DNA of 64,000 bases from Ereboglobus sp. (lineage in GTDB: Bacteria > Verrucomicrobiota > Verrucomicrobiia > Opitutales > Opitutaceae), in assembly GCA_029974595.1 (NCBI GenBank), contig JARKRC010000027.1, positions 310,001 through 374,000 on the forward strand. The letters are read 5' to 3'. The position numbers and the translations under genes were made by a program. Positions 3,001-49,919 of the stretch are shown piece by piece. Each line of letters begins with the position of its first letter. Position 1 is the first letter of the stretch. Below the pieces are notes generated by a model. That model searched no databases. It was not told where the DNA came from and saw nothing but the letters and a program-made list of their open reading frames with translations.

Positions 3001-5011
3001 CCTCGTCGAGCACAGCTACTATGGCACGGGTGTGAACAATCCCGTCGGAAAAAGCGCCGGCACAACCGGCCTCATCCGCACCATCAACAACATCTACAAC
3101 GCCACCACCGGCTCCATCGACCCCGGCACTGATACCGTCTTCACACCGTCCTATTCGTACCAACTCGACGACGCAGCCGACATCCCCGCGCTGATGCCGC
3201 AATACGGCGGTAACACCGACGGTGCATTCTCGGTTACACCCGCCGTGGCCCAGCCGCTGAGTGTCGTCGCTTCAACGACAACGCCCCTCCAAGGCGACAC
3301 GGTCACCCTCGTCCCTTCGCTCGGCAACGCAGGCACCGCCTACCAATGGCGTTTGAACAACTTCGACATCGCCGGCGCGACATCCGAAACACTCACGCTC
3401 CCCAACTTCCAATCCGCCAATCTCGGCGCCTACACCGTCGTCGTGACCACCGCGCCCGGCAAATACACTGTCAGCTCGCCGACCACGCTTGTCTTCGGTC
3501 CTGCTCCTTCCTTTCCCAACGCAACCGGCGGCGCAATCGCGGCGGTAACCGGCAAATCGGTCACCCTCAGCCCCGCCGTGAACGGCGAAGAACTCAACTA
3601 TCAGTGGCAACGCTACGACGGCAGTGCGTGGGTCAATATCACCGATGACTCCACCTACTCCGGCGCCACCACGGGCTCGCTCACCATCGCAAACATCGGC
3701 GACGCGCAAGCCGGCCAGTATCGCCTCGTCGTTACCAACCCGAGCGGCCCCGCTACCACAGACCCCTACACCCTGTCCATAGCCCCCGTGCTCTTCCCGC
3801 ACCCCACCGGCATTGCGCTCGACTCCTATGGTGATCTCTACGTGGCCGACTCCGCGCTCAACGTGATCCGCAAGATCGCCGCGGGCGGCACCACCGCCAC
3901 CCTCTACGCCGGCATACCCAACAGCGGCGGATTCAAGGACGGCGCCTTCGGCGTGAGCACCCTCAACTTTGGCCCATACTCCTACAACTCGCTGGCCATC
4001 GACGCCACCGGCAATCTTTACGTCGTAGACACCGGCAACAAGGTTGTCCGCCGCGTCAATCGTGATGGCTCGCTCACCACGCTCGCGGGCGACGCCTCCG
4101 GCATCGGCAATCGCGACGGCATCGGCACGGCCGCGCTCTTCTCCTCGCCCAACGGCATTTCGTTCGACCGCACCAACGGCGCCACCTATGTGGCCGACAC
4201 CAACAACCACACCATCCGCAAGCTCACGCCGATGAACGCTTCCTACGGCGTCTACATAGGCAACATCGTCGCCACCATCAACGGCGTGGCCGGCGTGAGC
4301 GGCGACAGCGACGCCCCGATGACTCTCTCGGGCTCTACGCTGGTATTGACCGGCACAGCACTCTACAACCACCCGGCCGCGGTAGCTTACTCGGGCACAT
4401 GCCTCTACGTTGCCGATGCCGGCAACAACACGATCCGCAAATTCATCTTGAGCGGTAGCTACCTCGGCGAAGTCACCACGCTCGCTGGCATGCCCGGAGC
4501 CTCGGGCTATGACGACGGTGCCGGCATGTATGCCCTCTTCAACCAGCCCAAGGCCATCGTCACCGACGCCAGCGGTTCCAACATCTACATCGCCGACACG
4601 GGCAACCACACCATCCGCCGCGTCACCCGTTTGGGCGTCGTCACCACCCTCGCCGGTCTGCCCACGGTCAGCGGCCTGGCCGACGGCGTCGGCGAGGAAG
4701 CCCTCTTCAACCAGCCCAGCGCGCTCGCCCTCGACATCTCCGGCAGCAACCTCTACGTGGCCGACACCGGCAATGCCACCGTGCGCAAGATCGTCATCAA
4801 CGGCACCACCGCCACCGTTTCGACGCTCTCCGTGCTCACCGTGAGCGACAGCCTCCCGCCCAGCGGCACGGTCCCGCCCTTCACGCCCGGCGACGAAGGC
4901 AGCGGCGAAGGCGGCGGCGCTGGCGGTGGCGGCGCACCCACCCACTGGTATCTTTCCGCCCTCGCGGCCCTGGCGCTCCTGCGCCTCGTGCGGTGGGGTA
5001 GAAAAAGCTGA
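2..5011 (+). CDS. Secreted Ig-like / pectate lyase / NHL-propeller protein (5' end outside window)
   Basis: The frame is open from the first bases, so the gene starts upstream; 1669 residues are visible. Order by nucleotide: two Ig-like domains (to about 400, with the recurring GxYxVVVTN strand), an unassigned segment (415-1190), four more Ig-like domains (1200-2275), a PL1-like right-handed beta-helix (about 2285-3200, with LHHNWW, ERMP and HMYGNYF motifs typical of pectate lyases), two further Ig domains (3230-3780), then six NHL-type repeats (YVADTGNxTIRK; 3785-4840) that should close a six-bladed propeller. The C-terminus is Gly-rich, then a hydrophobic helix, then an Arg/Lys tail, which looks like a GlyGly-CTERM or similar sorting signal (inference). 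Probable role: a cell-surface pectin-binding and pectin-cleaving enzyme. An intrinsic terminator follows 21 bp after the stop. Confidence 0.88.
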
Positions 5012-38683: not shown

Positions 38684-41600
38684 ATGAATACCACCATCGC
38701 GTCATTCTGTGTTTGTCGCCCGATTGCCCAAGTTTCGGCATTTCGCGGGCTGATAGTGGCTGCGGCCGTATGGATCGGCGCATTGAGCCCCGGCTATTCG
38801 CAAACAGTTTATTGGTTGAGCGGTAGCGCGGGTGCCGTTGGCTCCAAGGAAAACCCGTCTGGCGCCATACGTTTGATAAAAAATGATGTGGTTATTCTTG
38901 ATGCAGGCAAGGTTTCCGATGTTGTCGCATTTACTCCGTGGAATGCCATTTTACCGTCGTTTACGATCAGTTCGCTTGTGACAAACGGAGCAAACAGCAC
39001 CTACTTGGGGTATAAGGATGGGGACGTGAGCCTTACCTATGCCCTCACGCCGTTTGCGAAGCTCGACCCGGCGAAGAGCTGGGTAGTTCCAGAACTGATG
39101 CCGTCGTTTTTTACTCAGGGCAATCCCGTGCGCATATCAGCCAAAATTCAACAGGATAATAAGGATACGCCTGATTGGATCAAGGCGGTGACTTCGGTCG
39201 GGATGAATACTTGGCCAATTTCATTGTATTCTTCCGATGCGTTGGATGCGGGCGGCAACGGCATTGTTCCGCGCATGGATATGCAAAATGCGGCATGGGC
39301 CATTCTCACGCCGTCGGATACAACCTCGCGAATCCAGTTGATGGACTATTATAGTGATTATGGCCCCATACCTGCCGGCGGAACTCGGACTGTTGGCAAC
39401 TATTCGATGATAACCTTGGAGCACATTATCTTTTATGGGGGGCGCAGCCAGGGCAACGGCGGGGCGATCGATTTTCGCCGGGCCACAGACGGCCACTCCT
39501 CGCTGGCCTCGGGTAATCGCGCCACGGTGCAGATTAAAGGAGATGTGGCCTTTGTCGGTAATTCGGCGAAAAACCTTGGTGGCGCAATCCAAGGTCAGGA
39601 GTCGCTTCAATTTGACGGCAACGCCTATTTTGTAGGCAACATTGTCGGAGCTGACTACAGCCAGCCGGATGGCGGCTTGCTTGTATTTAATACGGGCGGC
39701 GGCAGCAGCTACGTTGGCAATGGTGGCGCCATTCGCGCCGGTTCCGGAGGCGATCAAAATCTTATCTTTAACAAGGACGCAATTTTCGTGGCGAATCTGG
39801 CAGGCGACATGGGAGGCAGCATATCCATCCATAACGGCACCAATCTTCGTTTCAACGGCAAGACCGTGTTCATGGGCAACATGTCCGGCCTCTATATGCA
39901 GCAAATGGCGACTCGTGGCGGCGGCAATGGCGGGGCCATTGTTTTTGGAGATACTGGAAACAAGGCATATTTTGCAGGGGAAAGTTATTTCATCGCAAAT
40001 GCGGCGGGTGGATATGGCGGCGCGTTGAGTGGCGGCCATTCGAGCAATGTCACCCAGAATTCCTTCTTTTATTTTACGGCAAATGCCCTTTTTACGGATA
40101 ACATTTCCGGCTACAATCCCACGACAACCACGGTAGTCAGCTCAACGAGCGGCCAGGCAAAAAATGGCGTGTTCACACCTCCCGCCAACATCACTACGGG
40201 CACCGGTATCACCAGTGATGGCTTTTGGTACGGTGAAGCAGTTGTCAATGTCTTGTCTGGCACCAACAAAAGCGGGCAGAAAGACTACGGCTCCAAAGTA
40301 AGAGGAGGGGGTGCAATCATGACATTGGGCGAGCGGCTGCTTTTCTCTGAAGGCGCGGAGGCGACATTCCGGCGCAATAGCACCAATGGCTCTGGCGGGG
40401 CAATCCTCACTTTCGCCAATCAGACTGCGAACAACGGCCCGACCGGGTATCTCACCGGCATCGCCACGGCGTTTTTCGATAACGCAACGTTTACCGGTAA
40501 CGTAGCCGTCATAAATGGCGGTGCCATCATGGCGGGCACGTATGGTACGGCGAGATCTGATATATGGACCTTCAGTTCGACCAACAACTCTGCGGCGTCG
40601 GTGTACTTTGGTAAGGCCGGCCTCGGTTCTACGCTCACGATGAATGGCAATATTTCTTACAGCAAACCGGTTGTCTTCATTACCAGCACGAATATAAGCG
40701 CGAGCGGTTCCGTTGTCATTGCCACCGGCACAAGTGTCAAAACGGCCAATGGCACAACAGTGGACGAAGTTCCGGTGATGGGCGGCGGCGCGGTCTTTGC
40801 CAATGGCGGGCTTTACGTCGAATCCCTGTATTCATTCAGGAATAATCAGACGGGCGGTAGCGGCGGCGCGCTCCTGATCGGCTCCGGCACGACGCCTCAA
40901 CTCATAGCGGGCAGGCAGGGATCGCCTTACGCCTTGATTCTCAATCCGTTGGATTGGAAAAATGCGGGGACCTATTCCAAGGCAGGCGACTGGGCTTTGT
41001 TGCAGAATAATGTGGCCGTCTATAACGGTGGCGCCATCGGCTCTTATGACGGTGCCAAGCTTTATATTGGTTCCGGCGCCAAATTTCTCGAGAACTATGC
41101 TGGCGGGCAAGGCGGTGCGATTGCCATGGGGCTGACTTCGGGAGCTATTCCGGGGAGCGCTTCGATTCCCGCCTCATCGATTGACGCACCGCTTCTCGAT
41201 CTTCGCGCTCGGACGGGCGATATTATTTTCCAAGGCAATCGTGCTGGTGTGGCGGTGGACACATCAACCGTCGATTTTGGTAAAATACTCGATCCCTCCA
41301 TCTCTGGGGACGGGACAGGAACCGCCGGATATATGACTGTGAACACAACGTCGGGTCGAAAAAATGATATTTATGTGGGCAAAGGCGCGATCACCGGAAC
41401 AGCCACTATTGCCGGCACGATCAATATGGATGCCTACAAGGATATGAAGATTTCTTTGAATGGCGGCATTGAGATGGATCATAGCGGAACAAAGAACCTT
41501 GTTGTTAAAATCAATACCACCCCCTACGTCTCGACAACTTCCATAGGTGGCACTTCAGCAACAACAGGACTTCTTGCCGATAGCGGCACGATGCCGGTTG

Positions 41601-44600
41601 GCTTGGTGGTATTTGACAATGCCGGCGCGGATATCGAGGGTGTCACCACCATCGGCAACGGCATACTTCGCATCCAAGGCACCTCGAATAATCTGCATTG
41701 GGGCACAGGCACGAGTACCACGCGTGCGGGCACAAAGTTCGAACTGCAAGGCCCCGCCTCGCTCGAGGCCAACGCTACCATCAATGCCAACACGATTCTC
41801 ATTGGTGCCGGCGCCACTCTTCGCGTTCTCGGAAGCAGCGTCGGCGCAGGCGTCCTCTCGCTCAACGCCGGCGCGGGCGGCGTCACCTATTCTGGTTCGG
41901 TGAATCTTGCAGGCAATGGCCGCATCAATACCGGTGTTTCCGGACTTGCTTCCGTTTCCTCCGTTACCGTCGGCGATTTCGGGCACGCGGCGGCGCAAAC
42001 GCTGACCATCGGACAGAATGTCTCGGTGCTTGCTGGCATCACGTTTGCCAACAACGCAAAGCTGACCGTGGGTTTGTTCGACGGAGGCAGCGACCTGCTG
42101 CGCGCGGACTCCATCACTCTCGGCTCCAGCACTCGAATCAGCCTGAGTTCGGTGGCACAGGGTCTCTCGTTTAATTTGGCGAGGGCGGACAGTGCCATTG
42201 CTGGAAGCACCGTTTTTGCGCTTGATTACAAGGGCACGGATCTCGCCGCCATGGTTGTGAATCCCCGCTTTACGGCGAACGCCTATATTAGCGGCAACGA
42301 CATCCTTTTGGATTATACGACCACCAACAAACTCCTCGCTTGGAATGCGGCAAGTGGCGTCTGGACTTCCGTGGCTGCCAATTGGGCAGGCGGCGATACC
42401 AAATACGTGCTCGGGGACGCTGTGGTCTTTGACGCCGCGCATTCCGGCAGTGTCAGTGTAAATGAAAACGTCGCCGCGTCCGGGATGAATGTGACCGGTG
42501 ATTACACCTTTGGCGGACAATATGGCATCACCACGCAGGCTTCCGCATGGGGCGGCGGCGCGGCTCCGACGCAGGCGGATGGACGCCTCACCATGAGCGG
42601 TACGGGCAAGATGCTGACACTCGCCAACGCCCAGGCGGGCCAGCGCAACGAATTTATGAGCGGCATTTTAATCACCGGTGGTACCGTTGCAGCAGGCACC
42701 GAAGCCCAGCTCGGCTCGGCCCTCAGTCAGATTGTATTTTCAAACAACACGAACAATGGCGCGGCGCTCCTCGTCACCAATACGATGATTCTCAACGGAG
42801 CCTCCAGCCTCCAGTCCCAGCGCCTCAATGTCGCAACGGGTAACTTCGCCACCATCGCCACAACCGCCTCCGGAGCGCTGTATGTCATCAACAACACGGT
42901 TGTGGGAACCGGCGGCGTGATTAATGTCGAGGCGGGCTCCAGGCTCAATCTCAACGCGCAAGGCAGCATGTCGTTCTTGAATAATACGGCTGCCCAAGGT
43001 GGCGCGCTCGCTTTGGCTGCCAGCTCCACGGCCAGTATTGATGTGGCTTCGGACAAAACCGTGATGTTCGGCTTGCAAGGCGACCGCACTCTCAACACAT
43101 CGGCTAACACCAGTGCCGCGGATTCCATTTATGGCGCTGCCGGCTCGATGATAGAAAAGAAGGGGGCGGGCACACTCTCGATCAATTCCAACAGCTCAGG
43201 CTTCCACGGCACCCTGAATGTGAATGAAGGCAGAGTCTTGCTTGGCGAAGGTTCGGTGTTCGGCTCGTTGACAAGCCATATCAATGTTCGCAACGGCGCC
43301 CTGTTGGGGGGGGGGGGCACGATTGGCGGCAATCTTCTTGTGGATGGCGGCAAGCTGTCGATTGACGGCGGGCAGGCATTTGATCGTTCCTCTTGGGGGA
43401 CGGCTCAGACGCTTACGATCGTGGGCGATTTTGGCCTGAACAATGCCTCGTTGCTCTACAATGCCGTGGTCAACAAAAGCAATGAATATAGTATTGACCT
43501 CATTCAAACGCACGGTCCGGTCAGTATTTCAGGCTCCACAAAATTCGACTTCAACAGGCTCTCAACCGGACTCGCGTCGCTCATCGATTCGGGCTCCTCG
43601 GCCATCACATGGGCGGCCACTGCCGGCGGGGTTACAAGCGGCAGCATCCACTTGTCGGGCACGTTTGTAACATCGTCGGGCAGCAGTTACGCGATCATGC
43701 TGCTCAATTCCAACACAGCTTGGAATGGCCCGACTTTCGTTACTTCGCATACCGGTGCCACCTCTGAAAACTTTATTACATCCACCAACTTTGTAATAAG
43801 CAAGGGAGGCGTCAATCTTGACGCGTCGCGTTATGAAATCGAGGTCGGGTACAATCTGATTAATTCCCTTTACGTCGTTGACACGTCAGGTGCCATCACC
43901 GGTACGGTCGGGGCGGTGGTGAGCCAGACCAATTTCTACGACGCTTCAAAGCTCGTAATGAATACGTTCGTCAACAACATGAAGCTTTATTGGACGGGCG
44001 AATCCGGCACATTATGGAACACCTCCAGCAATAATTGGTACATCCCGAAAGCGACCTCCGATAAGACTTTTGCCGACGGTGACAGTGTTGTCTTCGGTGC
44101 CACAGGCAGCAATGGAATTGCATATGACAACAACGATGCGGCCCTGCGCTCTGTAAACGTCGATATGCTTGCCGCTTATGTGGCGGATCTGACTGTTACG
44201 GGAACAGGCAACTGGACGTTTGTCGGCGGTGTGATTGCCTCCAACGCGGGCGCCAACAACTACAGGGACGCGGATCGCAATGACCTCAGCACCGGCCAGT
44301 TTGTGCTCGACGAATCATTCACCGGCACCGTTACCCTCGCAAACAATGGTGGCATTTCGTTCAACGGAGCGTATGTCACCACAGGATCGACGACAAAAAA
44401 ATTGAATAATGTTGAGATTCGCAACGGCACGCTGCTCACGTCTGCAGGCAGGCTGAATGAAAATTCAGTTCTGAACAACAGCACCCTGATATTCAACCAG
44501 ACTTCGAATGAAACCCTGAAAGCCATCGTGACGGGAACCGGCGATATCATACAGACAGGATCGTCCACTCTGACTGTGAATGAAGAAAGCGGTGTCAGGG

Positions 44601-46624
44601 TAAAAAATTACCGGATCCTTCAAGACAGCAAGTTGCAGATCAATACGGGCGGCATGACGCTTACAGGCACGCTTGCCATCAATTCCGGCGCGCAGCTTAT
44701 GATAAGCGATTATGTGATTATGGACACGCTGTTGAACAATGGCGCATTGATGAAGAGTCCTGTTGACTCCGATGGCCAAAAAGCTCCGGACACCAGCTTG
44801 AAAATCAGAGACCCTGGCGTTCGTGACACTTCCATTTATGTCATGGGCAATTATCATAGTGATGGCGGCACAGTTGTCTTGAACACCTATCGGGACGCGA
44901 TGCTTGTCAATAATGTCGTTGTCACCGGAAATTCAAGCGGCACCAGCTTTGTCGCTGTCCGCAACATCACTTCGTTGGATTCAGCTTCGACTAATGTCGG
45001 ATTCCTCGGCACAGGAACCTTCTTTCAGCCCGCCGGCTATCCTGCCACTGTCAATACGATGGCGCAGAGCAAACGCGATACGATCATCTTCAGGACGCTT
45101 GGAGGGCAGCATGACCTGCAATTGATCATGGACTGGAATAACAGCATTCTTCCCAGTGCGACGGTCAACTCCATTGTGCCATTTTCGACCCTGATCACTA
45201 AAACTGACGAGGTCGTCTCGACTGTCGAAAAGATTATAACTATAACTTCGAGCGGAACGCTGGAAACGAGCACAACCACCTCAGGAACCACCTCGCTTTC
45301 CTCCGGAACAAACACTGCGCATTATTATAATAAGGATGGTTCGATTGCCATCATTGGAAGCAGCGGGACCACCGTTTTGGGTTCAGGCACTGTCGTTAGC
45401 AGCGGCACTACGGTCGCAAGTGGCACCATCACTGTGGTGAATCGCAGCGTGGTAACCGGCACCGTTGTTGTGACCGAGCTGCAGACTACTTATGGCCCGA
45501 GTGAAATCGATTATAGCGAGTCGCGCGACAATTACAAATTGGTCAAGGGCAAGGACGGCAACTGGTATTTCCGCAATGCCAGCATCGCTCTTCAGAATAC
45601 CGACCTGCCCATGATGGGGGCTGCTCCCATCATGGCCGACGTAATCGGGCAAGGCAGCGTCAGGGCGTTTTATAAACACATCAACGCGCGGCACGATGAT
45701 CTCCGGAAGGGTTGGTCCACATGGGCCAATTACACCCACAGTGAAGACCGCCTTCGCCAGGAATATTACGCCAATACCATGATCAAGCAGGATATCTTCC
45801 AAGTGGGGGCCGATTATACCTTCGGAAAGGACGGCAAAAAGTTCAGTCTGGTTCCTTCGATCAACTTCGGCGGCGCGTATGCCTATACAAGCGCCAAGGC
45901 CACGCGTGATGAAAGCTCCGCCAATCTTCAGGATCTGTTCAACCAAGCTGACAAATCAACACTCTCGGCAAATATCAACACACTCACAGGCTACGCGTCC
46001 GCCCGCTGGTGGCGTTTTTATCTCGATATGCTTCTCCAATACAGCCCCGATGCGAAGTATAAGGCAGAAATAGACAGCAGCGTCCCGTTTGATCTCAATG
46101 GCAGTGTAAAAGGCTCGCGGCTTGGAGCCTCCGCAGAGTTCGGCATCATTATCACGCCGGCAGGGCTCGGCCAGCTTGAAATCTACGCGCAGGCGACCGG
46201 CCAGAAACATGACTTTGGCAGCATATCCAGGATTTCCGAGCCTGTTGATTTGACCAATGGTGAAGGCTATAACCCTATTTACGATCCGAATTCCGCGACC
46301 GGACGTCGTTATCATTTCACCGCGCCAACCACGTTCCAGGCCGAAGGCGGGCTGCGTTGGGGATCGCATCTCAAGATTAATGAAGCTTTCGCCGTCCGTC
46401 CTTGGGCCGGACTTGCTTATGGCCGCATGATAAGCAGCGACTATCTTATCTATGTGGACGATGAGAGCGTTCGCAATGACATGCGTGGAAACTATTACAC
46501 CTTCCAAGGTGGCGCGAGCGCGCTAATCGGGCGAAACTGGCAAGTTTACCTCACGCTGGGGTGGACGAACGGCGCGCCAAGCAATAATTATACACTCTCT
46601 TCGGGAGTGAATTATCATTGGTAA
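38684..46624 (+). CDS. Giant Pmp-type autotransporter adhesin
   Basis: 2646 residues. A signal peptide (ending about GYSQT) precedes a long passenger. From about 39430 to 41170, and again near 43000, it is built of repeats pairing FxxN (FVGN, FIAN, FTGN, FLEN and others; 12 seen) with GGA[ILV] (13 seen), the hallmark of chlamydial polymorphic membrane proteins. The middle has autotransporter-associated beta-strand repeats (GAGTLSINSN, GGTIGGNLLVDGGKLSIDG). About the last 300 residues (from WSTWANYTHSEDRL) form an autotransporter beta-barrel ending in VNYHW. It should display an extended adhesin on the cell surface. An in-frame run of 12 G at 43306-43317 could switch it off by slippage. The composition is more AT-rich than its neighbours. 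Confidence 0.88.
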   Translation: MNTTIASFCVCRPIAQVSAFRGLIVAAAVWIGALSPGYSQTVYWLSGSAGAVGSKENPSGAIRLIKNDVVILDAGKVSDVVAFTPWNAILPSFTISSLVTNGANSTYLGYKDGDVSLTYALTPFAKLDPAKSWVVPELMPSFFTQGNPVRISAKIQQDNKDTPDWIKAVTSVGMNTWPISLYSSDALDAGGNGIVPRMDMQNAAWAILTPSDTTSRIQLMDYYSDYGPIPAGGTRTVGNYSMITLEHIIFYGGRSQGNGGAIDFRRATDGHSSLASGNRATVQIKGDVAFVGNSAKNLGGAIQGQESLQFDGNAYFVGNIVGADYSQPDGGLLVFNTGGGSSYVGNGGAIRAGSGGDQNLIFNKDAIFVANLAGDMGGSISIHNGTNLRFNGKTVFMGNMSGLYMQQMATRGGGNGGAIVFGDTGNKAYFAGESYFIANAAGGYGGALSGGHSSNVTQNSFFYFTANALFTDNISGYNPTTTTVVSSTSGQAKNGVFTPPANITTGTGITSDGFWYGEAVVNVLSGTNKSGQKDYGSKVRGGGAIMTLGERLLFSEGAEATFRRNSTNGSGGAILTFANQTANNGPTGYLTGIATAFFDNATFTGNVAVINGGAIMAGTYGTARSDIWTFSSTNNSAASVYFGKAGLGSTLTMNGNISYSKPVVFITSTNISASGSVVIATGTSVKTANGTTVDEVPVMGGGAVFANGGLYVESLYSFRNNQTGGSGGALLIGSGTTPQLIAGRQGSPYALILNPLDWKNAGTYSKAGDWALLQNNVAVYNGGAIGSYDGAKLYIGSGAKFLENYAGGQGGAIAMGLTSGAIPGSASIPASSIDAPLLDLRARTGDIIFQGNRAGVAVDTSTVDFGKILDPSISGDGTGTAGYMTVNTTSGRKNDIYVGKGAITGTATIAGTINMDAYKDMKISLNGGIEMDHSGTKNLVVKINTTPYVSTTSIGGTSATTGLLADSGTMPVGLVVFDNAGADIEGVTTIGNGILRIQGTSNNLHWGTGTSTTRAGTKFELQGPASLEANATINANTILIGAGATLRVLGSSVGAGVLSLNAGAGGVTYSGSVNLAGNGRINTGVSGLASVSSVTVGDFGHAAAQTLTIGQNVSVLAGITFANNAKLTVGLFDGGSDLLRADSITLGSSTRISLSSVAQGLSFNLARADSAIAGSTVFALDYKGTDLAAMVVNPRFTANAYISGNDILLDYTTTNKLLAWNAASGVWTSVAANWAGGDTKYVLGDAVVFDAAHSGSVSVNENVAASGMNVTGDYTFGGQYGITTQASAWGGGAAPTQADGRLTMSGTGKMLTLANAQAGQRNEFMSGILITGGTVAAGTEAQLGSALSQIVFSNNTNNGAALLVTNTMILNGASSLQSQRLNVATGNFATIATTASGALYVINNTVVGTGGVINVEAGSRLNLNAQGSMSFLNNTAAQGGALALAASSTASIDVASDKTVMFGLQGDRTLNTSANTSAADSIYGAAGSMIEKKGAGTLSINSNSSGFHGTLNVNEGRVLLGEGSVFGSLTSHINVRNGALLGGGGTIGGNLLVDGGKLSIDGGQAFDRSSWGTAQTLTIVGDFGLNNASLLYNAVVNKSNEYSIDLIQTHGPVSISGSTKFDFNRLSTGLASLIDSGSSAITWAATAGGVTSGSIHLSGTFVTSSGSSYAIMLLNSNTAWNGPTFVTSHTGATSENFITSTNFVISKGGVNLDASRYEIEVGYNLINSLYVVDTSGAITGTVGAVVSQTNFYDASKLVMNTFVNNMKLYWTGESGTLWNTSSNNWYIPKATSDKTFADGDSVVFGATGSNGIAYDNNDAALRSVNVDMLAAYVADLTVTGTGNWTFVGGVIASNAGANNYRDADRNDLSTGQFVLDESFTGTVTLANNGGISFNGAYVTTGSTTKKLNNVEIRNGTLLTSAGRLNENSVLNNSTLIFNQTSNETLKAIVTGTGDIIQTGSSTLTVNEESGVRVKNYRILQDSKLQINTGGMTLTGTLAINSGAQLMISDYVIMDTLLNNGALMKSPVDSDGQKAPDTSLKIRDPGVRDTSIYVMGNYHSDGGTVVLNTYRDAMLVNNVVVTGNSSGTSFVAVRNITSLDSASTNVGFLGTGTFFQPAGYPATVNTMAQSKRDTIIFRTLGGQHDLQLIMDWNNSILPSATVNSIVPFSTLITKTDEVVSTVEKIITITSSGTLETSTTTSGTTSLSSGTNTAHYYNKDGSIAIIGSSGTTVLGSGTVVSSGTTVASGTITVVNRSVVTGTVVVTELQTTYGPSEIDYSESRDNYKLVKGKDGNWYFRNASIALQNTDLPMMGAAPIMADVIGQGSVRAFYKHINARHDDLRKGWSTWANYTHSEDRLRQEYYANTMIKQDIFQVGADYTFGKDGKKFSLVPSINFGGAYAYTSAKATRDESSANLQDLFNQADKSTLSANINTLTGYASARWWRFYLDMLLQYSPDAKYKAEIDSSVPFDLNGSVKGSRLGASAEFGIIITPAGLGQLEIYAQATGQKHDFGSISRISEPVDLTNGEGYNPIYDPNSATGRRYHFTAPTTFQAEGGLRWGSHLKINEAFAVRPWAGLAYGRMISSDYLIYVDDESVRNDMRGNYYTFQGGASALIGRNWQVYLTLGWTNGAPSNNYTLSSGVNYHW
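43306..43317 (+). repeat. Homopolymeric tract of 12 G inside the autotransporter gene
   Basis: Twelve consecutive G spanning the codons for LGGGG near residue 1541, upstream of the barrel domain. The reading frame is intact with 12 G; 11 or 13 would truncate the protein before the barrel. It is the longest homopolymer noticed in the window. Confidence 0.9.
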
Positions 46625-46679: not shown

Positions 46680-49600
46680 ATGGATACAACCAACAATGCC
46701 CTCGGGAGTTTTCTTTCCAGATGTAAGCTTGGCGCCTTCCTGTTTATTTTCATCTGGCTGAGCACTGGAGCCGCATTGGCTCAAAGCACGGCTGGCAATG
46801 GCTCTATTTATGGGCGCATCTTTGATGCTGACACCGGCAGGTTCATGCAGAACGCCGAAATCACGATTGAAGGACGCACGGAAACAACCGTTTCCGAGCA
46901 AGGTGGCTTTTACGTTCTCAACAGCGTTCCTGCTGGGGAAATTACCATGGTGGTTAGCTACGCTGGTTATGTCACGCAAAAGCGCGCAGTCACTGTGACG
47001 GCAAGCGGCCGCATTGCCGTGGATTTCGAGATGCGCCTGATGCCCAGCTCGTTGGGCGCGCCATCTGACGTGTCAGCAGACGCGAAAAAAAGCGATGTGA
47101 TTGTGTTGGACAAGATCACAGTCACCACAGAGCGCGCCGGCAACGCCCGCGCCTTCATGGATCAGAAAAATGCCATGACTCTTTCGACCGTGGTGGCGGC
47201 CGATAGTTTTGGTACAGTGCAGAATGGCAATATCGCTGAGTTCCTCAAAAATTTGCCCGGTATCAGCGCCTTGGAAGACGATGTCACCGGCGAGGCCAGT
47301 GAAATCAGCATCGGCGGCATGGATCCGCAATATACAGGTGTCTATATGGACGGCGCACGCATGGCCAGTGGCGCAAAAGGCGCATTTGATGAAAGCTCTC
47401 GCACATTCCAGTTTGACCAGGTTTCGATCAATGGTGTTGAAAGCATCGAGATTCGCCGGACTGTAAGCGCAGATATGGACGGGGACGCGCCTGCCGGCGG
47501 CATTTCCATGCGCAGCAAAAGCGCTTTTGATCGAAAAAATGCGGTTCTGCTTTACGATATTTACCTGACGGGCAATTCTTTTGCATTGGATGCGAGCCGC
47601 ACCGCAGGCGTTGATGATGGGAAGAGCCTTAAAATTCAACCCGGCTTTATCCTGTCATACTCGACCCCGCTTAGAGAAAATACGATGGGGTTGCTTGTGC
47701 AATTAAATGGTCAGACGGATTACAGGGAAAACAACCGCGCGACCAACAGCTTCGGCAGCAGTTATGTGAACAAAGTGACTTATCGCAACTCTCAGACCCA
47801 AAGCGAACGTTACAATGCCAGCATTCGTTTCGACTGGAAGATCAGCCCATTTGCCAAGATGTCCGCCCAGCTTGCCTATAATAAGAGAAATACGACATCT
47901 TTCAACCGCAACGTTTCTTTCAACGCCGGGACAAAAGGCAATGACAGCAATACGAGTAATTATCTTTTCTGGATGTCACAGGAAGATCAAGCTGCTACGA
48001 ACGTTGGCGTTAATCAATCAGCCTCTTATAGCGACAGCCAAACCTATCAGCCCACTCTGACTTTTAACTGGAAACGCTATCGTTTCACATTTGATGCGAT
48101 CGCTACATTTTCTTACTCCGAAGGTGCTAAAAATCCTTCGAACAATAAATGGTTTCCTCAAATTACGCTGCGCAGTAAAAATAGCAATGGCAGTGGAAAT
48201 ATCCTCTGGGGGCAGCGTGATGACCTGAGAAGCATGGAATGGTTCTTCTATCGCGGGGACAGATTTACAAAGGCCGTCAATCCGACTTATATGGAGCAGT
48301 TGGGACAAAACACATTTTATGGGCAGGACGGAACCAGATCGATTGTCGATCCTTTGGCAACGAGCAACAAACAGACCATACCGACGCTCAAGATGGATCT
48401 TCGCTGGGATGCCCCGACAAGAATGCCACTTTGGTTCAAGACTGGATTTAATGGAAGACAAAGTAAATTTGACGCATGGCAGCCGACAAATAGCAGCGGT
48501 GGGGCTCTTGCGAACCATTATCAATACGTTGGATCCAACATAGTTAAGAACGTCGGGCAAGGCGGCGGCTTCACAAACTCCGGTTATGATGCTTTATCGG
48601 GAAATGATAAAGATCCGGACGTTCCTTCGTTATCCTCGGATTACTATCGTTCGGCTTATCACTTTGATCCTCACTTTGGCGGGAATGTCACTGATTTGAA
48701 CATCCCGCTTATCAATCAGACGCTTCTCTACTCCGCCTTCAAGAATCCAAGTACCAATTACTGGTTCTATCAAGATCCTGCTGATGCGGCAAATGGCCGC
48801 ATTGCTGGCTATACGGGAAAGCGCGATCTTTCTGAGACAATGGCCGCAGGGTATCTTATGGGCGAAATCAGACCGCTCCCGCGCCTGATTTTCCAAGCGG
48901 GTTATCGCTATGAATATACTAATCAGGAATCGCTCACCTTGATTCCGCTCACTAAGGGGCAAACACACAACATACTCGGCACTGGTGGAAACTCCATTTA
49001 CGAAACCACGGATCTCTTTATTGACACAATGTATAAAAGGGGTGAGCGCACAAAGATCACAAAAACTTATTCCTTCTGGCTGCCGAGCGCCGCCATGAAA
49101 TATAATTTCACCCCAAACCTGACCGCGCACTTGGGCTATAGCGAAGGTTTTGGACGATTGGATGTCGAAAAGATCGCTGGCAATTGGAAGGTGAATGACT
49201 CGTCGCTGAGGGCTGATGCCCCGAATCCCAACCTAACCCCGGATCGTTTCAAGACCTATGCAACAAGCGTGGAGTATTATTTTGAACCGGCGGGCAGCTT
49301 CACCTTTACGTATACAATTCGCAAGTGGGACGGCGTATCATACGCGGCCATGCCTATTGATTCCAGCAATATAGATAATCCGTCTCCTGAGCTGGCCCAA
49401 CTCATTGCCATGTATGGCCGCGACACAATCGAGACCTTTGTAAATAATAATTATGAGATTCGCATGTATCTGCCCGAGAGCTCGGACAACAGAATGATGC
49501 AAACCCTTGAATTTGGTTATCGTCAGCGCATCCCCGCAATTCCAGGCCTGCAGGTGGACGCCTCCTTCACTCGCAATGTGCCGAATTGGCGGAAGACGGG

Positions 49601-49919
49601 TGCGTCGTCGGCCCCCAAGATCGCCTCGGGCGGCGTCAGTTACAGCAACCGCAACTTTTTCGTGCGTGTGAGCGGCAATTGGCGGGACCGCTACTGGACC
49701 AATTGGAACGAAAGTTTGCAGACAGGCGCAGGCCAAAGCGCGCGTTTCACACTCAATCTCGAAATGAATTACCGCCTAAAAAAATGGCTTACCATATATT
49801 TCAGGGGCGACAATATATTGAATGAACCGACGGATGCTTGGACGATGTATTCGGACCTCCTTCGAGAAGAGACCTTTACCGGAGCAGCCCTTCGCCTTGG
49901 CATAAAAGGCGAGTTTTAA
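46680..49919 (+). CDS. TonB-dependent outer-membrane receptor with carboxypeptidase-like N-domain
   Basis: 1079 residues. A signal peptide (LGAFLFIFIWLSTGAALAQ) is followed by a carboxypeptidase-regulatory-like beta-sandwich (GSIYGRIFDADTGRFMQNAEITIEGR... GGFYVLNSVPAGE, about residues 40-120), a plug domain (IAEFLKNLPGISALEDDVTGEASEISIGGMDPQYTGVYMDG) and a large beta-barrel ending in RLGIKGEF with the typical C-terminal Phe. No SusD partner is present, so it is probably a TonB-type importer of plant oligosaccharides rather than a SusCD pair. It lies 55 bp after the autotransporter, which suggests co-transcription. It is noticeably more AT-rich than the enzyme genes. Confidence 0.9.
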   Translation: MDTTNNALGSFLSRCKLGAFLFIFIWLSTGAALAQSTAGNGSIYGRIFDADTGRFMQNAEITIEGRTETTVSEQGGFYVLNSVPAGEITMVVSYAGYVTQKRAVTVTASGRIAVDFEMRLMPSSLGAPSDVSADAKKSDVIVLDKITVTTERAGNARAFMDQKNAMTLSTVVAADSFGTVQNGNIAEFLKNLPGISALEDDVTGEASEISIGGMDPQYTGVYMDGARMASGAKGAFDESSRTFQFDQVSINGVESIEIRRTVSADMDGDAPAGGISMRSKSAFDRKNAVLLYDIYLTGNSFALDASRTAGVDDGKSLKIQPGFILSYSTPLRENTMGLLVQLNGQTDYRENNRATNSFGSSYVNKVTYRNSQTQSERYNASIRFDWKISPFAKMSAQLAYNKRNTTSFNRNVSFNAGTKGNDSNTSNYLFWMSQEDQAATNVGVNQSASYSDSQTYQPTLTFNWKRYRFTFDAIATFSYSEGAKNPSNNKWFPQITLRSKNSNGSGNILWGQRDDLRSMEWFFYRGDRFTKAVNPTYMEQLGQNTFYGQDGTRSIVDPLATSNKQTIPTLKMDLRWDAPTRMPLWFKTGFNGRQSKFDAWQPTNSSGGALANHYQYVGSNIVKNVGQGGGFTNSGYDALSGNDKDPDVPSLSSDYYRSAYHFDPHFGGNVTDLNIPLINQTLLYSAFKNPSTNYWFYQDPADAANGRIAGYTGKRDLSETMAAGYLMGEIRPLPRLIFQAGYRYEYTNQESLTLIPLTKGQTHNILGTGGNSIYETTDLFIDTMYKRGERTKITKTYSFWLPSAAMKYNFTPNLTAHLGYSEGFGRLDVEKIAGNWKVNDSSLRADAPNPNLTPDRFKTYATSVEYYFEPAGSFTFTYTIRKWDGVSYAAMPIDSSNIDNPSPELAQLIAMYGRDTIETFVNNNYEIRMYLPESSDNRMMQTLEFGYRQRIPAIPGLQVDASFTRNVPNWRKTGASSAPKIASGGVSYSNRNFFVRVSGNWRDRYWTNWNESLQTGAGQSARFTLNLEMNYRLKKWLTIYFRGDNILNEPTDAWTMYSDLLREETFTGAALRLGIKGEF

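Follow-up and report, generated by a model that had tools for sequence, protein, structure and literature searches.

Can the gain or loss of a single guanine decide whether a bacterium displays a giant surface protein? This question is raised by a run of 12 consecutive G within the gene of a Pmp-like autotransporter of Ereboglobus sp., a member of the Opitutaceae in the phylum Verrucomicrobiota. The gene is located in a 64,000-nucleotide stretch of DNA, which we refer to as the window (assembly GCA_029974595.1, contig JARKRC010000027.1, positions 310,001 to 374,000; coordinates below are those of the window unless a locus or contig is named). In this work we find that the tract is genuine and that it is above chance, if modestly. 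By analogy with a shorter tract in the same phylum it is probably mutable, and it would act as an off-switch for its host gene; selection for switching is unproven. On balance the tract looks to us more like a recent accident of mutation, prone to slippage by chance, than like a conserved and selected switch.

The tract and its reading frame

The tract occupies positions 43306 to 43317 of the forward strand, with a T before it and a C after it, and is the sole spot in the window where nine G or C stand consecutively. It lies 58% of the way along the autotransporter gene, 3307 nt ahead of its end. The codons TTG GGG GGG GGG GGC ACG encode Leu1541, Gly1542 to Gly1545 and Thr1546, where the tract supplies the final base for Leu1541, three whole GGG codons and the first two bases of the GGC codon of Gly1545. 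These codons are part of a Gly-rich turn motif of the passenger, LGGGGTIGG (43304 to 43330, forward strand), which aligns to LGGAATIGG and LGGAATFGG in two orthologues.

What would a change of length do? With one G gained, the first stop is located at 43363 to 43365 (forward strand, coordinates of the 12-G sequence). With one G lost it is located at 43437 to 43439 (forward strand). The stops in the other two frames thus come 46 and 120 bases after the tract, and both precede the C-terminal barrel. The shifted products would end near residue 1560 (13 G) or 1584 (11 G) of 2646, without the barrel at residues 2317 to 2646. The original prediction, that twelve G stand in frame in a coding sequence and that one G more or fewer removes the barrel, is therefore confirmed on both points. 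The locus has the anatomy of a contingency locus, with a homopolymer that is long enough to slip, in frame, and with early stops in both other frames.

Slippage of the tract is plausible because a 9-G tract has been reported to slip in Akkermansia, which belongs to the same phylum (PMC13055324). In the scheme that we propose, the run would have arisen in this species at the turn motif of the passenger. The DNA polymerase would then slip on the tract often enough to leave 11 or 13 G in a minority of the cells. These cells would make a protein cut at about residue 1584 or 1560, respectively, which lacks the barrel and hence would not be displayed. The sequenced 12-G state would be the ON state.

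Other routes to variable expression were considered. For programmed or transcriptional slippage no alternative product is evident, as both alternative frames end soon. A scan for tandem arrays between 36000 and 50000 returned nothing notable as a further switch, and a promoter scan at the start of the autotransporter gene gave a score that was not above those of shuffles.

A genuine tract or an artefact

Long G runs in an assembly may be sequencing or assembly artefacts, either two-colour no-signal G calls or tracts of a wrong length. The genome studied here (77 contigs, G000) offers grounds for such concern. Five of its contigs terminate in runs, of 94 (C9), 19 (C12), 26 (C14), 73 (C44) and 59 bases (C71), at the loci L050, L052, L053, L068 and L084, and all five read G outward. 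At the ends of both C9 and C12 there are autotransporter-looking ORFs (open reading frames); the two genes are oppositely directed relative to the contig end, yet the runs share the outward G. The terminal runs are likely sequencing artefacts that were left in the assembly, and they look like no-signal G calls, a cause that we infer. In two-colour, NextSeq-type chemistry G carries no label, as described in PMC11140927. Among the Pmp-like ORFs the one run longer than the tract, the 94 bases that open C9, was discounted as such an artefact.

Two congeners, G002 and G003, also have long runs at or near contig ends, in mixed orientation. Furthermore, three C runs (17, 35 and 14 bases) are clustered in G003 away from the ends of a 125-kb contig (L134, G003:C12; locus positions 3307, 3333 and 3388). 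This calls for some caution, since contig ends are not strictly the only places where such runs occur. The cluster sits in a 544-residue open frame, and is either an artefact or a real low-complexity stretch.

Against an artefact, the 12-G tract lies about 47 kb from the nearer end of its 400,505-base contig. Both of its flanks align to two orthologues, gap-free and in frame, at a slot where these have two glycines and two alanines. An artefact is very improbable on this evidence. The original prediction had named an assembly error as a way in which it could fail; we looked at this and, given the distance from the contig end and the conserved flanks, judge the tract to be real.

Tract length and chance

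How unusual is a run of 12? The glycine codons of the autotransporter gene are GGC (202), GGT (54), GGA (50) and GGG (41). Against this usage three consecutive GGG are unusual. When the synonymous codons of the gene were shuffled (n = 5000), a run of at least 12 appeared in 0.22% of the shuffles and a run of at least 10 in 2.4%. Summed over 32 Pmp-like genes, from which contig-end runs had been taken out beforehand, synonymous shuffles lead us to expect 0.01 genes with a run of at least 12. Dinucleotide shuffles of the whole window are a looser control, and 8 of 100 reach the same number of overlapping 9-G matches (four). The tract had been described as far beyond chance; above chance it is, by the synonymous shuffles, but less extremely so than this wording suggests.

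The genome as a whole provides a further yardstick. Two Markov models, built from 174 kb of the genome and scaled to 4.07 Mb, predict 33-53 runs of at least 8, 1.4-3.1 of at least 10 and 0.06-0.19 of at least 12. Observed were 31 places with runs of at least 8, eight of them reaching at least 10. Five of the eight are the contig-terminal runs discussed above, which leaves runs of 11, 12 and 14 bases. This makes two non-terminal runs of at least 12, i.e. the 12 in the autotransporter gene and an intergenic 14. The surplus of very long runs in this genome therefore extends beyond the autotransporter gene. The intergenic 14 G (L080 4844-4857, G000:C26) are located about 150 bp before the ORF of a secreted-looking NHL-repeat protein.

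Long runs in other genomes

Runs of at least 10 were found in 32 of the 38 genomes searched, with the Ereboglobus genome itself and contig ends counted. In the congener G002, a glutamate synthase gene and the gene of a Ysc84-domain protein contain runs of 10. This genome also has two 12-base runs that are away from contig ends and outside any clear gene. Because these runs sit in ordinary genes or outside genes, a long G/C run alone is no mark of a switch. The contexts of the runs of at least 10 in G007 are mixed (19 of 50 were looked at), with no confident gene assignment. In the one-contig congener G001 there are intergenic runs of 26 G (L116, G001:C1:1282279) and 22 C (L119, G001:C1:2824499), the second of which is less than 100 bp upstream of the point where a GH106 alpha-L-rhamnosidase gene probably starts. 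Both may be promoter-region tracts.

Might the tract simply be a stable, neutral run, in which 12 G encode turn glycines, repair holds the length and nothing switches? The protein length at the slot, which equals that of the orthologues, agrees with this, as do the runs of 10 in ordinary genes of G002. Nonetheless, 9 G have been reported to slip measurably in another species of Verrucomicrobiota (PMC13055324), and 12 G should be at least as unstable. We consider a stable run improbable.

The motif that surrounds the tract can also be sought directly. A pattern of 11 G, any base, Thr, a hydrophobic residue, any residue and Gly was searched over GTDB contigs and gave at least 120 stretches. Of the 80 loci shown, 16 had the pattern in frame in an ORF of at least 250 residues and more than 60 bases from the locus end; a single Pseudonocardia protein accounts for two of the 16. 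Judged by eye, there is no autotransporter passenger among the 16 in the matches listed, which is a weak negative. A 9-G version of the motif was found at seven places in six of the 252 genomes of the family. This count is at chance level, as the reversed pattern matched six times. Only the place in the window lies in a long ORF in the frame of the motif; the other six lie in ORFs of 19 to 149 residues.

Accident or selected switch

Has selection kept the tract as a phase-variation switch? If so, it would be held long because random ON/OFF display of a giant adhesin pays, e.g. in host contact, in the face of phage or in immune escape, as proposed for the pmp genes of Chlamydia. The truncation in both other frames, the Pmp-type repeats in the passenger and the excess over synonymous shuffles would all be in line with this. 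The comparison with relatives points the other way.

The two orthologues, L074 and L327, are of similar length and share 58.3% and 56.5% identity with the autotransporter, respectively. Neither carries the tract. Their DNA at the slot reads CTC GGC GGT GCG GCC ACC (G236) and CTC GGC GGC GCG GCG ACC (G002), the alignment there is gap-free and the number of codons is the same. Past slippage by triplets has left no trace, since there are no extra Gly codons relative to the orthologues. A near-identical second genome was not found among the 252 genomes of the family, where the best others reach 68% and 67%, and the comparison consists of one genome per species.

The survey of Pmp-like genes was extended to 56 other ORFs from six genomes, 31 in five genomes (65,827 residues) and 25 in G236 (58,435 residues). 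None has an interior G/C run of at least 9. The longest run is 8, in one ORF, followed by 7 in other ORFs. ORFs were chosen by their density of GGAI-type motifs, a rule by which a few incomplete or doubtful ones also pass; every passing ORF was kept, and one gene entered as two pieces owing to a frame break. In G236 the repeats were scored in 150 of 387 first-look candidates. The survey does not extend to one further G236 ORF at about 2.02 Mb, to the rest of the giant ORFs of that genome or to two drafts, G237 and G238. Tract-bearing genes thus number one in 57 and a family-wide use of poly-G is rejected. Recurrence among orthologues and paralogues, which would support a contingency locus but does not define one, was not seen.

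The relative G236 (two contigs, 7.9 Mb) is rich in Pmp-like genes and has zero runs of at least 10. Its Pmp-type repeats occur in about twenty large ORFs. On contig G236:C1 there are open frames of 16,953 and 10,954 residues with such repeats, around 6.92-6.93 Mb and 2.09 Mb. Two further ORFs of this genome, L340 and L343, are also without the usual aromatic end.

Could other genes have been caught in an OFF state? Three Pmp-like paralogues have frame breaks, L183 (G000:C4) and L185 and L194 (both G001). Their breaks are without any G/C run of at least 7, and we reject the idea that they are OFF states of a poly-G switch. They may be pseudogenes or sequencing errors.

These results do not support the evolved switch of the original prediction: the tract is absent from both orthologues and from the 56 surveyed ORFs, and the 9-G motif search of 252 genomes found no second case in a long ORF. 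The missing triplet slippage, the Pmp-rich relative without long runs and the paralogues that were broken without poly-G speak against it as well. We regard a selected switch as doubtful, though worth keeping in view.

From sequence comparison the tract appears species-specific so far. As the relatives that were examined lack it, we somewhat favour an accident over a dedicated switch. That said, three points weigh against our preference. The gene encodes a large surface protein, the usual home of contingency tracts. The tract is longer than synonymous-codon chance allows (0.22%), as selection for length would have it. Finally, many contingency tracts are strain-specific, and a true switch could therefore be lacking from relatives.

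Comparison with known systems

A parallel is found in Chlamydia, and Pmp-like autotransporters of the PVC (Planctomycetes-Verrucomicrobia-Chlamydiae) group are a further known system for comparison (PMC2811131). In the account given in PMC6740158, poly-G tracts of variable length precede the autotransporter domain in PmpG genes. These are 8-19 G long in C. psittaci, C. abortus and C. felis, recur among paralogues and are often out of frame. The 12 G described here are within this range. The likeness to PmpG of C. pneumoniae, C. psittaci, C. abortus and C. felis (PMC6740158) lies in a poly-G tract in a Pmp-type autotransporter gene, upstream of the barrel, where a frameshift would remove the barrel. 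There are also differences. PmpG tracts are described as present in most paralogues of the cluster and as variable in length, whereas here the tract is in one gene of 57, and in frame. The distance from the tract to the gene end is 3307 nt here versus about 1300 nt in C. psittaci, C. abortus and C. felis.

The parallel with chlamydial pmp genes, which had been called striking, stands in part. The Pmp-type repeats and the place of the PmpG tracts upstream of the barrel (PMC6740158) bear it out. However, Pmp switching was treated as a hypothesis in the 2015 account of PMC4514472, and the longest tract given for C. pecorum autotransporters in PMC3932018 is 8.

A parallel from the same phylum is Amuc_1413 of Akkermansia muciniphila. 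According to PMC13055324, four of nine sequenced mutants had one G more in its 9-G coding tract, in 87-91% of reads, and mucin binding was lower in both mutants tested. The gene is an exopolysaccharide gene with the tract near its 5' end, a frameshift at residue 55 and 9 G in 32 of 100 genomes (PMC13055324). The two loci share the phylum, a coding poly-G tract and a surface-related gene, and slippage by one G is reported to truncate the Amuc_1413 product (PMC13055324). Unlike Amuc_1413, the present locus is an autotransporter gene with the tract 58% of the way along, in one genome. Long coding homopolymers in Akkermansia were noted as early as 2011 (PMC3048395), and capsule phase variation there is also described as proceeding through an invertible element (PMC13343947).

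Searches of the literature on Opitutaceae phase variation turned up a maize-root study and the Akkermansia genome paper (PMC3048395), and those on phase variation of Verrucomicrobia autotransporters turned up Chlamydia work only; both are weak negatives, as subscription journals were thinly covered.

In this setting the tract is a candidate addition to the well-known class of contingency tracts, in a phylum from which poly-G slippage has already been reported. A more far-reaching idea is that a poly-G ON/OFF switch arose independently in a Pmp-like giant autotransporter of the non-chlamydial Opitutaceae, at a turn motif of the passenger, and that one adhesin class thus undergoes phase variation by one and the same mechanism on the two sides of the PVC superphylum. 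We offer this tentatively, and think it rather unlikely.

Length variation, if found, would make this a cell-surface contingency locus in a little-studied lineage of Verrucomicrobiota, comparable to Chlamydia pmp and the Akkermansia tract. If there is no such variation, the locus serves as a caution that anatomy alone does not make a switch of a poly-G tract, even one that stands in frame in an adhesin gene, and that poly-G runs in such draft assemblies need checking against contig ends.

The autotransporter and its neighbour

The host gene (38684 to 46624, forward strand) encodes a giant Pmp-like classical autotransporter of 2646 residues, supported by its ORF, its family matches and its orthologues of similar length. 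By eye, residues 1-40 resemble a Sec signal peptide, and the C-terminus ends in ...NYHW.

The C-terminal translocator (residues 2317-2646; 45632 to 46621, forward strand) was recognised from its predicted fold and its structural matches. An AlphaFold2 (AF2) model of these 330 residues, based on an alignment with 19 relatives, has one helix and twelve long strands, with a predicted local distance difference test score (pLDDT) of 83.2 and a predicted template modelling score (pTM) of 0.82. The best PDB match of the model is EspP (8bo2_P; Z 30.1, 276 residues, 2.1 Å, 14% sequence identity), and other matches are EstA (Z 29.9), NalP (Z 28.6) and AIDA-I (Z 28.2). The predicted helix and 12-stranded C-terminal barrel are those of type Va autotransporters such as these four. 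The protein differs from them in its length of 2646 residues, in its low sequence identity to EspP and in giving no PF03797 match at E up to 1. For lack of this Pfam match the assignment rests on the predicted fold, by which the product is modelled as a classical (type Va) autotransporter, and the identity first proposed for the gene is borne out.

The passenger carries 15 GGAI-type and 22 FxxN motifs, as expected of chlamydial Pmp repeats. The main stretch of GGA[ILV]/FxxN motifs, at about residues 259-852 (39458 to 41239, forward strand), is Pmp-like by motif count and TIGR01376. This family, POMP_repeat, matches the protein with 17.2 bits against a cut-off of 15. It is found in all four genomes of the genus, in one of 34 other relatives and in all three genomes of a further genus. 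TIGR01376 is not specific to Pmp proteins, as E. coli matches too (one of 14 control genomes). The Pmp middle domain PF07548, one of three Pmp domains named in PMC6740158, has no match at E up to 1, and on sequence grounds we therefore class the protein as Pmp-like rather than as Pmp. PF02415 does not match the 2646-residue protein at E up to 1 either; it matches the paralogue on C9 at 7.9e-11.

A model of 391 residues around the tract, of modest quality (pLDDT 72.3, from four sequences), consists nearly entirely of short strands and turns. In this model the first of the four glycines ends a short strand and the other three are in the following turn. Foldseek with the same segment found nothing at E 0.001 or better, and beta-helix proteins were frequent among the rows.

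The neighbouring gene (46680 to 49919, forward strand) encodes a TonB-dependent receptor of 1079 residues. The orthologue in L327 and a 34% relative in L075 are likewise each followed by an ORF that by eye resembles a receptor, which suggests that the autotransporter and the TonB-dependent receptor form a conserved gene pair.
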